Assembly: GCA_903970475.1 (NCBI GenBank)
Contig: CAJCIQ010000104.1
Span: 1 to 64,000, forward strand
Direction: 5' to 3'
DNA: 64,000 bases
Source: Beijerinckiaceae bacterium
GTDB lineage: Bacteria; Bacteroidota; Bacteroidia; Chitinophagales; Chitinophagaceae
Both the position numbers and the translations under genes were made by a program. Shown here piece by piece: positions 29,766 through 41,398 of this stretch (position 1 is the first letter of the stretch; each line of letters starts with the position of its first letter). Under the pieces are notes generated by a model. That model saw nothing but the letters and a program-made list of their open reading frames with translations. It did not search any database and was not told the DNA's origin.

Positions 29766-32700
29766 TTAGAAGTTGACAGTCAGGTTGGCTCCAAAGCTGC
29801 GGGTTGTTGGCGTTTGAAGACCAGAACCGCTGTCCTGGGTATATTGGTCTACGTCCAGGTCCTTGTACTTGTTGGGGAAGAAGTACAACAGGTTCCTGCC
29901 CACCAGAGAAATACTGGCGCCCTGAATTTTGTTGATCTTCGTCCAGATAAAGGAAGGCAGATTATAAGTAAAGGTCACTTCCCTCAGTTTCACGTAAGTC
30001 TTGGAGATCATGTTCAGGTCAGGGATAGAAGCTGCGTTGTACACAAAGGGCTGCACCAGGCTCTTGGTAGTATTGGTAGCTTGCTTCAAAGCGCTGAAAT
30101 TGGTAATGTTCCCATTCTGGTCCAGGCTGATGGCTCCGCCTGTCAGGTTCACACCTTCGCCGGTATAAGCAGGTATGTTGGCCTGGTCGGAAGGACGTGC
30201 TACACCAATGGCACCGGAAGCAGCCTCAATATGGCGTCCGGCTTGTAAAGTTTTCAGACGCACATAATCTTCAATTACACCACCCACAAGTCCATCAAAC
30301 TGGAAGTGCAGGGAGAAATTCTTGTAGCTGAACGTGTTTATCAGACCCCATTGCCAGTTGGGATCGGAGTGCCCGTAAATCTTTTGAGCAGAAGAACCCA
30401 GATCAGAATAACGGTCATACACACCGGAGGTAGGATCTATGACCATTTGACCACTTGGGGTCCTTACGAAACCGTTTCCGTATACCACGTCCACACGACT
30501 TCCATTCTTTTCCCAGGGGCTGGGGCTTGAGTAGTTCACCCATACTTTTTTGTAGGTAGAGAAGTTGGCCGCAATGGTCCAGCTAAATCCGTGAGGATTG
30601 GTAAAAGGTTTGCCAGTCAGCACCGCTTCCCAACCATTGTTGGTATAAACGTTACCGTTAGTTTCAAGAGAGGAGTACCCAGTAGCTGAAGAATACTGCT
30701 GATCAACGATACCTGTATTCTTGTAATGGAAATGGGTAACATCCAATCCAATGCGGTTGTTTACGAAGCGGATATCACCACCGAATTCCGTTGCCTTACG
30801 GTCAGAGGTATAGATGGTGGGACTAACCACCTGGTCAGTATACTGGGCACTGCTCTGGCTGCCATAAGTAGGTTGCAGCGTGTAGGTAGATGCAAACTGG
30901 TAATTATTGGGGCCACCATAAGCAGATTGCCATACATATCCATAACCGTTAGCAGCGGGGACGCTGGCCAGATTGGGGGTGAACAGCGGAGAGGTACCAC
31001 CATCCTTACTTTCGGCATAGGACCCCTTCAATTTCAGGAAGGAGATCACCGTAGGAAGTTTCACATAATCGGACACAACGGTTGCCAGGTTGAAGGAGGG
31101 ATAGTAGTAAGTGTTCGTATTAGCGGGCAATGCAGAAGACTTATCCACACGACCAGTGATATTGGCCGTTACATAATCCTTATAACCCAGGTCCACAGAG
31201 TAATATGCGCTCAACACCAGCATTTTGGAGTTGAAACTGGTTCCCTGAACTGGATTGAGGGAGTTCGAGAAAGCATAAACACCAGGTACGCTCAGGTAGT
31301 TGGTGGATTCGAAATTGGACATGAAGTTGAACTCACGGGCAGTACCACCGGCCAAGGCTACCAGGTTCAGGAAGCCAAGCAGGTCATTTTTATGGTAACG
31401 AGCCTGGAAATCTTCGTAGGTATCAATCAAAGAGCGATTGTCTTGCCTATAATCCCCTTGACGCAAGGGTCTTCCATAAGCACCAGCGGAATAAGGCATC
31501 TTCTCCGTGTTGGTCATGTCGTAGGCAGTCAAGCTAGGCCTGAACTGGAAGTCAATGCTGGGGCTCAGTTTATAATTCAGGGATATATAACCATATTCGT
31601 TGTTCTGGTAGTGTCCCCTCAACCATTGTTCAGACATGAACCAGGGATTGTTATAGCGGTAGTATTCTTCGTAATTCTGTTGAATACCCACTTTACCAGG
31701 CTGCCAATAGTTCTTCATGGAGTTGATAGACCAGTCAGCACCACCCCAGATAATGATGTTATAGATAATGCTGTTAGGACCATAATCCACGTCAGGTACG
31801 TTAGGCGTAGATTGACGGCTGTAGTTGATATAACCACTTACCGTAAAATTCTTGGACACCCTATGTGTCAGACTCAAGGTGAAATTGGAATTACTTAATT
31901 GCGTATTAGGCACGATCCCTTTGTTATAGGTATTGCCCACGGACATACGGAAATCGGTCTTTTCCGAAGAAGAACTCAGCGATAAGCTATTGGAATAAAG
32001 TTGTCCGGCCTGGAGGAAGTTCTTCAGGTTGTCCTTACCCCGGGCAATCCAGGGAGTGGGTTGAACGTGACCGGTATAGGTGCTACCGTCAGCAAAAGTC
32101 GTCGTATAGTTCGTACCTGGATTGTAAGCACCATCATACTGAGGCAACATTTGGCCTGTACCGAACTTGGGCCCCCAGATATCGTAATCATAGTCATTGA
32201 TACCAACCCCTACTGCACCATTACCAAAATAGGACTCGGGGCTGGATCCACCACCACCGAAGGCGTATTTACCATTGTCTCCAGGACCATATTCATCCTG
32301 GTACTTAGGCAGGGCAATGAAACCCTTATTGATCTGGGCACTACTGTTAAAGGTAACATTCCAACCCCTTTTGTCCTTAGAGCCTTTTTTGGTGTTGATG
32401 ATGATGGCACCGTTCTTACCCTGGAACCCGTACAACGCAGCGGCGTTAGGTCCTTTCAGGATGGTAAAGGACTCGATGTCGTCAGGGTTGATATTGTACG
32501 TATCAGAACTCAAAGGAACCCCATCAACCACAAACAGGGGACGGTCAATGGAAGCATTCTCACCACGCATGATCACCACAGGAGAGTGGCCGATTTCAGG
32601 CGTAATGTTTACTTCCAGGCCAGCGGCAACTCCTTTCAGGGAGTTAAGGGGATCTGGTTCCCTGGCTTTGGTGAATTGAGCGGCATCCACTGTTTGCAGG

Positions 32701-33068
32701 GCATAACCCAGGGTCCTGGTTTCTTTTTTAATACCAGTAGCCGTTACCACTACCTCATTCAGTACCCTGGAGTTGGTTTCCAGCTTTATAACCAGCAAAT
32801 CGGCGCCAGCGGTCTTTACTTCTTGGCTTATGAAGCCTACCCCAGAGAATACCAAGGTAGTGCCATTCTCAGCATGGATGTGGAAGACCCCATTATCATC
32901 CGTATTCACTCCTTTGGCTTTTCCCTTAATCAAGACGGCAATGCCAGGGAGGGGCTTTCCGTCCAAAGCGGAGAGTACCTTGCCCTCGACCAAGGTTTGT
33001 GCTCTTAATAAAAAAGGTACCAACAGCGAGAAGAGCATCAAGGCTGTCGAACATGCAATTTTTCTCAT
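29766..33068 (-). CDS. SusC/RagA-family TonB-linked outer membrane transporter
   Basis: An 1100-residue transporter. It has a signal peptide, a CarboxypepD-like domain (VEGKVLSALDGKPLPGIAVL), and the SusC-specific plug with LNEVVVTATGIKKETRTLGY, NSLKGVAAGLEV and DDIESFTILKGPNAAALYG. A large 22-strand barrel ends in SFGANLTVNF. It pairs with the SusD-like gene downstream to import an oligomer through TonB energy. A near-consensus -7 element (TACTTTCG) lies at 33106-33113, and candidate operator half-sites surround it. Confidence 0.95.
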   Translation of the reverse strand: MRKIACSTALMLFSLLVPFLLRAQTLVEGKVLSALDGKPLPGIAVLIKGKAKGVNTDDNGVFHIHAENGTTLVFSGVGFISQEVKTAGADLLVIKLETNSRVLNEVVVTATGIKKETRTLGYALQTVDAAQFTKAREPDPLNSLKGVAAGLEVNITPEIGHSPVVIMRGENASIDRPLFVVDGVPLSSDTYNINPDDIESFTILKGPNAAALYGFQGKNGAIIINTKKGSKDKRGWNVTFNSSAQINKGFIALPKYQDEYGPGDNGKYAFGGGGSSPESYFGNGAVGVGINDYDYDIWGPKFGTGQMLPQYDGAYNPGTNYTTTFADGSTYTGHVQPTPWIARGKDNLKNFLQAGQLYSNSLSLSSSSEKTDFRMSVGNTYNKGIVPNTQLSNSNFTLSLTHRVSKNFTVSGYINYSRQSTPNVPDVDYGPNSIIYNIIIWGGADWSINSMKNYWQPGKVGIQQNYEEYYRYNNPWFMSEQWLRGHYQNNEYGYISLNYKLSPSIDFQFRPSLTAYDMTNTEKMPYSAGAYGRPLRQGDYRQDNRSLIDTYEDFQARYHKNDLLGFLNLVALAGGTAREFNFMSNFESTNYLSVPGVYAFSNSLNPVQGTSFNSKMLVLSAYYSVDLGYKDYVTANITGRVDKSSALPANTNTYYYPSFNLATVVSDYVKLPTVISFLKLKGSYAESKDGGTSPLFTPNLASVPAANGYGYVWQSAYGGPNNYQFASTYTLQPTYGSQSSAQYTDQVVSPTIYTSDRKATEFGGDIRFVNNRIGLDVTHFHYKNTGIVDQQYSSATGYSSLETNGNVYTNNGWEAVLTGKPFTNPHGFSWTIAANFSTYKKVWVNYSSPSPWEKNGSRVDVVYGNGFVRTPSGQMVIDPTSGVYDRYSDLGSSAQKIYGHSDPNWQWGLINTFSYKNFSLHFQFDGLVGGVIEDYVRLKTLQAGRHIEAASGAIGVARPSDQANIPAYTGEGVNLTGGAISLDQNGNITNFSALKQATNTTKSLVQPFVYNAASIPDLNMISKTYVKLREVTFTYNLPSFIWTKINKIQGASISLVGRNLLYFFPNKYKDLDVDQYTQDSGSGLQTPTTRSFGANLTVNF

Positions 33069-33113: not shown

Positions 33114-33129
33114 AAATGGATAGTTAAAC

Positions 33130-33325
33130 TAAACTTTAAGTTTAGGTTAGGTAAACTTTAAATAATCATTAACACATACTTGGAATAGGTAAATAGCTGG
33201 GCATTAAGGAGAAAGAAGGGAACTTTTCCTATGAAGGACGGATGGGGAGATAAAGTTAATGGACTAAACCTACCAAGTCAAAAAAGCAGCTTTAAGGAAA
33301 GATTAAGTTTAGATGAGGTAAACTT
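33130..33325. promoter_or_regulatory. Clustered TAAACTT half-sites upstream of the susC-like gene
   Basis: Five copies of TAAACTT or its complement occur at 33130-33136, 33138-33144, 33152-33158, 33305-33311 and 33319-33325. Two are arranged as AAGTTTA-N7-TAAACTT within a 26-nt direct repeat with only a few differences (33138-33163 and 33305-33330). The proximal cluster falls at the -33 region of the susC promoter. This looks like an operator with a second upstream site. Confidence 0.55.
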
Positions 33326-33427
33326 TAATTTAGTATCAGAACGCAAGTTTGGCACAATTTTAAATGAACGTTCAATTAAAAAAGGGGCGCTACCTAAAAT
33401 GGGTCCTGACTAAAATGAGCCTTGGCT

Positions 33428-33491
33428 AAAAAGGGTGGTGCCTGTTTTAAAATGTGGAAAAAACCATCTTAAAACAGACACCACCCTTTTT
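33428..33491. repeat. Long hairpin H3 (conserved-loop family) with T tracts on both sides
   Basis: Arms 33428-33454 and 33465-33491 pair over 27 positions with two A-C mismatches that become G-U wobbles on the minus strand. The loop region is GTGGAAAAAAC. T runs close the hairpin on both strands, so it could act as a bidirectional terminator. The flanking 33164-33600 stretch otherwise shows only chance ORFs. Confidence 0.7.
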
Positions 33492-33607
33492 ATTCTCTCC
33501 ATCCCCGCTAAGTCCCGGCAATTATTTCACTGAAAAAAAGCCTCGGCATGCATAATTAATTCCACACCGTAAAGGCGCGAAGGCTCGGCGCCAGAAAAAA
33601 TTTGCAC

Positions 33608-33637
33608 AAAAAAAAGAGCCCCGTAGAAACGGAGCTC
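33608..33637 (-). terminator. Strong intrinsic terminator on the minus strand
   Basis: A nine-pair stem on the minus strand (GAGCTCCGT with ACGGGGCTC, one wobble) and TTCT loop are followed by eight T residues (A tract 33608-33615). No annotated minus-strand gene lies upstream before 34302, so it marks the end of an otherwise unrecognised transcript. Confidence 0.8.
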
Positions 33638-33676
33638 GTGAGACATGAGAAAATCTAACGTATGAGTCGTTTATTA

Positions 33677-33748
33677 TTATTTGAGGATGGTAAAGTACGC
33701 TGTATCTGAGTTCTGCGGTACAAAACTGCCCTCAAAATATAAAGGCAT
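33677..33748 (-). CDS. Possible 23-residue small protein
   Basis: An ATG at 33748 opens a 23-codon frame beginning MPLYFEGSFVPQ and ending YFTILK, closed by three in-frame TAA stops in a row. It lies centrally in the candidate transcript at 33608-33796, about 48 nt from the predicted 5' end. There is no clear ribosome binding site, which is normal for Bacteroidetes. The same bases contribute to predicted RNA pairing, so coding and structural roles compete as explanations. Confidence 0.35.
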   Translation of the reverse strand: MPLYFEGSFVPQNSDTAYFTILK

Positions 33749-33801
33749 TCTTAAGAGAACATGATGTTATTGTTATAACACAAAAAAATCGGGTTCAGGG
33801 G

Positions 33802-33809
33802 CAAAGTTA
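33802..33809 (-). promoter_or_regulatory. Promoter -7 element of the candidate small transcript
   Basis: TAACTTTG on the minus strand is an exact TAnnTTTG match. A TTTCG about 16 nt further upstream may serve as a degenerate -33 element. Confidence 0.55.
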
Positions 33810-33829: not shown

Positions 33830-34277
33830 ATGCTAATTTCCCCGGGTTATCTGCTTTTTTTAGCTTTTTTATGCAAATTCCCATTCACCACCTTCTATTG
33901 CCTCTCTTCCTCAAAATCTGCCATATATTTTATGAATTTCCCTCCCAGGGTACATTAATTTTTCTTAATATACCACAGCCCCCCTTACGGCACACCATAG
34001 CCGCATTTCAGCCTGTTAAAAGGACCGCAACCAGGCTTTCGGGAGCTGTAGACATACCGCTCCGTAAGAATACGGTGCGGGCATGAGGATACTTGCTTAA
34101 GGAAAACTATGAACGATTGTTATAATCATCATCAATGGTGGTGGATATCGGATTAATAACCCGGAGAAAACCGGTTGGAAGGAGATATATACAAATAAAT
34201 TGAACATTTATTACCTCAGTTTGAACACAGAATTAAATAATTGTAAAAGAATCTGGAGGGGGCCTCCCAATAAAAGC
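33830..34277. other. Gene-free stretch before the DUF47 gene
   Basis: An AT-rich region with only short chance ORFs (for example 33871-34086 on the plus strand, which lacks any recognisable motif). I see no hairpin with a U tract and no repeat here. Confidence 0.4.
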
Positions 34278-41293: not shown

Positions 41294-41326
41294 TTTGGAA
41301 ACTAAATATTTTTTTCCATACATTTG
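41294..41326 (+). promoter_or_regulatory. Complete Bacteroidetes-type promoter for a small RNA
   Basis: TTTG (41294-41297), a 21-nt spacer and TACATTTG (41319-41326) form the fullest -33/-7 match in the window. It faces a terminator about 50 nt downstream, with no ORF between. Confidence 0.65.
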
Positions 41327-41332
41327 CATATA

Positions 41333-41398
41333 GGTGTTTTTCATAGGTTAGCAACGGCCGACTCTTTCTAGGGTTGGCCTATTTTTTTGTCTTTTTTA
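41333..41398 (+). ncRNA. Candidate ~65-nt small RNA
   Basis: It begins about 7 nt after the promoter at 41319-41326 and ends at a hairpin with U tract. The terminal stem is GGCCGAC (41356-41362) with GTTGGCC (41373-41379, one wobble), followed by ATTTTTTTGTCTTTTTT. There is no start codon with a sensible frame. ATAGG near the 5' end could also pair with CCTAT at the 3' side of the stem, giving an alternative fold. The target or function is unknown. Confidence 0.5.

Follow-up and report, generated by a model that had tools for sequence, protein, structure and literature searches.

The window, by which we mean the whole 64-kb stretch of DNA analyzed here, contains a gap of ~1.2 kb between the start of a susC-like gene (33068, minus strand) and the start of a PhoU-like gene (34294, plus strand). 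The first-pass annotation had described this gap as a gene desert in which a perfect TAnnTTTG element and a strong terminator face each other about 190 nt apart with no gene between them, and the sequence bore out each of these points: TAACTTTG was read on the minus strand at 33809-33802, and a nine-pair stem followed by a run of eight T residues ended on the same strand at 33608 (Table 1). TAnnTTTG is the promoter element of the housekeeping sigma factor of Bacteroidota. The terminator stem, GAGCTCCGU/ACGGGGCUC (33637-33616), has eight Watson-Crick pairs and one U.G pair closed by a UUCU loop, with the T8 run at 33615-33608. Among the 57 TAnnTTTG sites in the window, two (33809 minus and 41319 plus) were followed on the same strand, at a distance of 40-260 nt, by a terminator-like hairpin, whereas no such promoter-terminator pair occurred in five shuffled windows, indicating that the pairing is not due to chance. 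The 195-nt stretch also folded more stably than its shuffled versions (z = -3.2). Judged from these signals, the best reading is that the window carries a free-standing gene, and a shorter 3′ form of ~60-90 nt may arise from it through processing or an internal start. The susC-like gene downstream matched Pfam CarboxypepD_reg_2 and Plug as well as TIGR04056 (428 bits).

Table 1. Features of the window and exact start-codon matches of the seed
Feature	Position or locus	Strand	Basis or remark
Promoter TAACTTTG	33802..33809	-	Perfect TAnnTTTG; expected transcription start ~33795
Predicted RNA, ~188 nt	33608..33795	-	Promoter and terminator positions; fold z -3.2
Terminator hairpin, 9 pairs, UUCU loop, T8	33608..33637	-	Covariation in 39 homologues
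Family A 3′ module, seed and terminator	33605..33664	-	Model R1 match, 75.6 bits
Seed UUUUCUCAUGUCU; reverse complement AGACAUGAGAAAA (start codon of M-R-K proteins)	33641..33653	-	Genomic counts, alignment
Second module, TATCCTCATGCCC then CCGUA-UUCU-UACGG hairpin	34056..34115	-	Same gap; without a clear T run
Second sRNA-like unit, TACATTTG, GUGUUUUUCAUAGGUUAGC, UUCU-loop terminator	41319..41388	+	Promoter-terminator pair
susC-like gene, start ATGAGAAAAATTGC, possible target	29766..33068	-	Downstream of the unit
Class Y exact starts, orthologous SusC genes	L114, L117		
Class Y exact starts, exported proteins	L118, L130		
Class Y exact start, lipoprotein-like protein	L126		
Class Y exact start, small glycine-rich peptide	L128		

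We compared the unit with its counterpart in the congener, the one other genome of the genus in our collection. The congener unit occupies the same place, between PhoU/PiT and a susC-like gene, and is 70% identical; its promoter, TACCTTAG, has one mismatch to TAnnTTTG. Conservation between the two species is highest in the last 50 nt (92% identity), which comprise ACTCATACGTTAGATTTTCTCATGTCT followed by the hairpin CCGTTTCTACGG. The first-pass annotation had also pointed to a 23-codon ORF ending in consecutive TAA stops and to an internal TTTGAGG/CCTCAAA complementarity, and had proposed a structured RNA, a small-protein mRNA or a dual-function RNA. The ORF exists (33748-33677; MPLYFEGSFVPQNSDTAYFTILK*, followed by further TAA codons), but the frame is not kept in the congener, where it ends after five codons (MPLND*); it is therefore extremely improbable, despite the ATG and the consecutive stops, that the product is this 23-codon protein, with or without an additional RNA function. 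The internal complementarity is likewise present in the window, but neither half is kept in the congener. Because the single congener keeps neither the ORF nor this pairing, readings based on a small protein or a folded body fail, whereas the non-coding nature of the unit is well supported by its 3′ module. With the 3′ end 92% identical, the ORF and the pairing lost and the promoter mismatched, selection appears to act on the 3′ end: on the sequence evidence the layout is genuine, but the central part of the unit is not what has been maintained by selection. Thus, the original observation was confirmed and its interpretation partly supported. In 80 other genomes, the syntenic PhoU locus contained no recognizable copy of either module, indicating that the position is genus-specific. 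Named relatives of the PhoU protein, together with the family label given by the search tool, are the basis on which the genus is placed in Chitinophagaceae.

6S RNA had been considered because of the length and internal complementarity of the unit, 6S-Flavo (RF01685) being another Bacteroidota non-coding RNA. It was rejected, as the unit matched neither 6S-Flavo nor any other Rfam family and the internal pairing was not conserved; RF01685 had no match in the genome, although control genomes were likewise without one, so that this does not show its absence. In scans against Rfam 15, none of the regions scored above a gathering threshold, and the window locus had no meaningful match at E<=10. 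A suhB/mmgR match was rejected (20.3 bits against a cut-off of 41), as were miRNA matches that proved to be chance hits on a long, near-perfect inverted repeat with ~28-bp arms (AAAAAGGGTGGTGYCTGTTTTAA...) lying between the sRNA and susC (33425-33494). Also upstream of susC, at 33120-33320, are repeated TTAAAGTTTACCTAACCTAAACTTAA-type palindromes, partly conserved in the congener (26/30); from their sequence, they look like operator sites.

The covariance search for homologues that the first-pass annotation had proposed was carried out with a model, R1, of the seed and hairpin built from four sequences including the window copy, and it showed that many genera have the 3′ module, with its hairpin covarying and its seed constant. 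R1 matched in 134/195 Chitinophagaceae genomes, although some matches are copies of a second family (family B, see below); we call the homologues of the window module family A. In 39 aligned matches, 99.4% of cells formed standard pairs and all nine hairpin pairs showed compensatory changes on both sides, with 124 compensatory cells against 38 in shuffles and a covariation score of 0.999 against 0.23 when shuffled and <=0.22 when slid. TTTTCTCATGT was kept in most of these copies, a constancy that is partly by construction because the matches were picked by a model that itself contains the seed. Many matches begin 8-40 nt past a stop codon. The host genes of these 3′ UTR copies, named by inspection of protein ends rather than by family searches, encode TonB-receptor-like proteins ending in ...DEQNRV, a gltD-like protein, ISXO2-like transposases and small secreted proteins. 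Three matches (L366, L371 and L377) look free-standing, each with a perfect TAnnTTTG ~50-60 nt upstream.

Counts of the seed within the genus are independent of R1. The 13-mer TTTTCTCATGTCT, which lies directly 5′ of the UUCU-loop terminator in the conserved 3′ end, occurs nine times in the window genome and 10 times in the congener, whereas the same pattern read backwards has no copy in either; across 242 further family genomes the mean is ~0.19 copies per genome, about the same as for the reversed control. In class X copies, which are either free-standing (at the window locus and in its orthologue) or carried in the 3′ UTR of a protein-coding gene, the motif lies just 5′ of a GC hairpin whose loop is UUCU or UUCC and which is followed by a T run; several seed copies in the genus carry the hairpin. 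Orthologous 3′ UTR copies behind ssb, a gltD-like gene and two secreted-protein genes retain the seed as their flanks diverge. In class Y copies, AGACATGAGAAAA lies on the start codon of M-R-K proteins: the reverse complement ACATGAGAAAA is a start-codon context and coincides exactly with five gene starts in the congener and one in the window genome, while a rough expectation from the share of ATGAGAAAA starts is ~0.25 exact M-R-K starts per genome. Duplex energies with the exact AGACATGAGAAAA targets were -20 to -25 kcal/mol. The window seed has few exact targets, and these are not the same in the two species; exact AGACATGAGAAAA also occurs at a SusC-like start (L139) of another genus. A few copies (L121, L122/L127, L124, L129 and L131) fit neither class clearly. 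The reversed copy at L131 and variant copies at L174/L179 adjoin the ends of glnA-like and gltD-like genes, a hint of a link to nitrogen assimilation.

These contexts bear on two alternative explanations. The amplified 13-mer might be a DNA element, either a protein site or the end of a mobile element, that spread near gene ends, as its occurrence in both orientations and mixed contexts and the several copies 3′ of an ISXO2-like transposase gene (L122/L127, L362, L372, L378) might suggest. However, the 13-mer beside UUCY hairpins is always 5′ on the same strand, its reverse-complement copies sit exactly on start codons and the hairpin arms covary as RNA, making this explanation very improbable. 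Alternatively, the unit could be a mere transcription terminator with a conserved termination aid that ends a non-functional or read-through transcript. The terminator is indeed the strongest structural signal, many copies lie in 3′ UTRs and the unit body is poorly conserved, but the hairpin is preceded, 190 nt upstream and with no intervening gene, by a perfect promoter; the element is missing from most other terminator-like hairpins in the window; and intrinsic terminators do not feature an exact 11-13 nt element amplified in one genus. We regard this explanation as quite unlikely.

Two further elements of this type were found in the window. The module at 34056..34115 is 58/60 identical in the congener, whose copy matched R1 at 21.7 bits; by sequence it is a probable tandem paralogue. 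In the unit at 41319..41388, GUGUUUUUCAUAGGUUAGC is antisense to an M-K-K start (anti-M-K-K seed UUUUUCAUAGGUU), and a nearly identical seed occurs elsewhere in the window genome (L194, on G000:C143).

Family B is a multicopy, sRNA-like sister family of about 78 nt in which a TAnnTTTG or sigma-54-like promoter is followed by AAGCAGTCAATTTTCTCATAAGCAGTTAGTTTTGGT and a hairpin of the same kind as in family A (e.g. G000:C124:6771-6848; L298, L299, L300-L327). Its covariance model, R2, matched in 143/195 Chitinophagaceae genomes with up to 10 copies per genome, while a class-wide search outside the family gave marginal hits in only 4 of ~286 genomes; no Rfam match was found at E<=1. A stretch of ~35 nt is near-invariant and the hairpin covaries. 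The UUUUCUCAU core is common to family B and the window seed, and R2 aligned with the window module end to end, if weakly (E=0.0065 in 104 kb). A sigma-54-like promoter (TGGCAY-N5-TTTGC or similar) lies upstream of 17/34 family B copies (e.g. L304, L315, L317 and L323), against a background of 0.4%; in the window genus, some copies use TAnnTTTG instead.

We then compared 80 SusC start regions from the window genome and the congener, which have ~50 SusC genes each, with 69 non-SusC starts; the SusC start codons were chosen by signal-peptide score, so that some may be wrong, and the control set consisted of mechanical ORF starts. ATGAGAA was present at 19/80 SusC starts versus 1/69 other starts, GATTGC at 22/80 versus 1/69 and TGCTTG at 15/80 versus 0/69. 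Family B shows complementarity to these motifs, as does another sRNA-like locus, L190 (GCAAGCAATCG). The mean duplex energy of family B was -22.3 kcal/mol with SusC starts and -13.3 kcal/mol with other starts (P=1.4e-14), compared with -12.8 +/- 0.9 kcal/mol for a shuffled family B sRNA; against 16 SusC-like starts from other genera, the signal was weak (P=0.011). With the same start sets, the window seed showed no preference for the SusC class (-9.27 vs -9.18 kcal/mol, P=0.58), although two orthologous SusC starts match it exactly over 13 nt. The first-pass annotation had noted that the unit lies upstream of a susCD-like operon on the same strand, and a link to this operon does exist, though not a straightforward one: the neighboring susC pairs moderately with the window copy (-12.9 kcal/mol), whereas its duplex with family B reaches -25.2 kcal/mol. 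The start-region code (CGATTGC, ACTGCTTG, CAAAACTA and ATGAGAAAA) is shared by numerous distinct SusC genes and in some cases lies within the coding sequence.

The complementarity of family B to SusC starts suggests a mechanism for the window module. Its functional part would be the 3′ module, in which a single-stranded seed, UUUUCUCAUGU(CU), precedes a UUCY-loop intrinsic terminator. The seed core TTTCTCAT is predicted to be mostly unpaired, and its GUCU end, for which weak pairing with AGAU just upstream is predicted, only partly so. The seed would act as an antisense copy of the start-codon context AC-AUG-AGA-AAA, and its pairing would occlude the landing site of the ribosome and repress translation; the 3′ UTR relatives could be released from their host mRNAs or act within them. 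As the most constant stretch is antisense to start codons, the module is probably a brake on nutrient-uptake and other surface proteins. We infer from the computed features that the RNA is made, that its seed pairs in the cell with repression as the effect, and which genes the window copy may target.

The seed might instead be the site of an RNA-binding protein, such as an RRM protein, that stabilizes or processes 3′ ends, with the match to AUG contexts a shared motif or secondary. Seven RRM_1 proteins in the window genome (L161-L167) are candidate partners, RbpB binds single-stranded regions of FopS in Bacteroides (PMC11697453), the element often lies directly past stop codons in 3′ UTRs, and the near-invariance of 35 nt in family B exceeds what a short seed would need. 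On the other hand, the seed is antisense to start codons rather than a copy of them, the whole conserved stretch of family B is complementary to SusC start regions, and paralogues with changed seeds (TTCTTCATGTCT, TTTTTCATAGG and CCTCATGCC) are still antisense to AUG contexts. We therefore consider a protein site unlikely. Antisense pairing has experimental precedents in Bacteroides, where start-codon pairing by FopS represses SusC mRNAs (PMC11697453) and the GibS seed pairs over start codons to repress its targets (PMC7366714).

Taking these points together, it is reasonably likely that the window unit is a FopS-like sRNA of a 3′-module type that would block start codons, its targets being predicted from complementarity. 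As in FopS of Bacteroides thetaiotaomicron (PMC11697453), we found multicopy paralogues, a canonical sigma-ABfr promoter (TAACTTTG), a single-stranded seed with an intrinsic terminator, predicted pairing near start codons, intergenic and 3′UTR-derived members and RRM proteins in the genome. However, SusC mRNAs are the main targets of FopS, whereas those predicted for the window family do not span the SusC class; FopS is 65-70 nt long in all, compared with ~190 nt predicted for the window RNA, and its host belongs to a distant lineage of the phylum. FopS also has its seed at the 5′ end, while that of the window unit lies at the 3′ end, directly before the terminator, and for this reason we did not file the unit as a FopS member. 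GibS (PMC7366714) also has a long unstructured seed over start codons but, unlike the window unit, has been described as a single sRNA that carries two seeds, R1 and R2, and has other targets; Rfam matched nothing at the window locus. Rfp18 of Flavobacterium psychrophilum (PMC9723704) is likewise a conserved Bacteroidota sRNA acting on exported proteins; in contrast to the window unit, it pairs through a stem-loop region, affects metalloproteases and is described as conserved within its genus rather than as a family of copies. The layout of family B is much closer to that of FopS than is the layout of the window unit, and family B is probably more important than the window unit itself.

To our knowledge, sRNA control of nutrient-uptake loci is understood in detail only in gut Bacteroides. 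Here, computation gives good support to an RNA family that extends across a family of environmental bacteria, from soil and water, and is absent from Rfam. Tentatively, we envisage that Chitinophagaceae may possess a layered network of anti-start-codon RNAs, formed by families A and B and unrepresented in Rfam. If so, the near-invariant family B would read a common start-region code of most SusC genes, and family A, both 3′UTR-borne and free-standing, would be aimed at AC-AUG-AGA-AAA starts, such that ssb, gltD-like, TonB receptor-like and transposase genes would emit or display their own start-codon blockers. The 3′ module would represent a compact case of start-codon antisense elements in ordinary 3′ UTRs, and, because SusC starts share a code, the idea of a global translational brake on glycan uptake can be tested directly.
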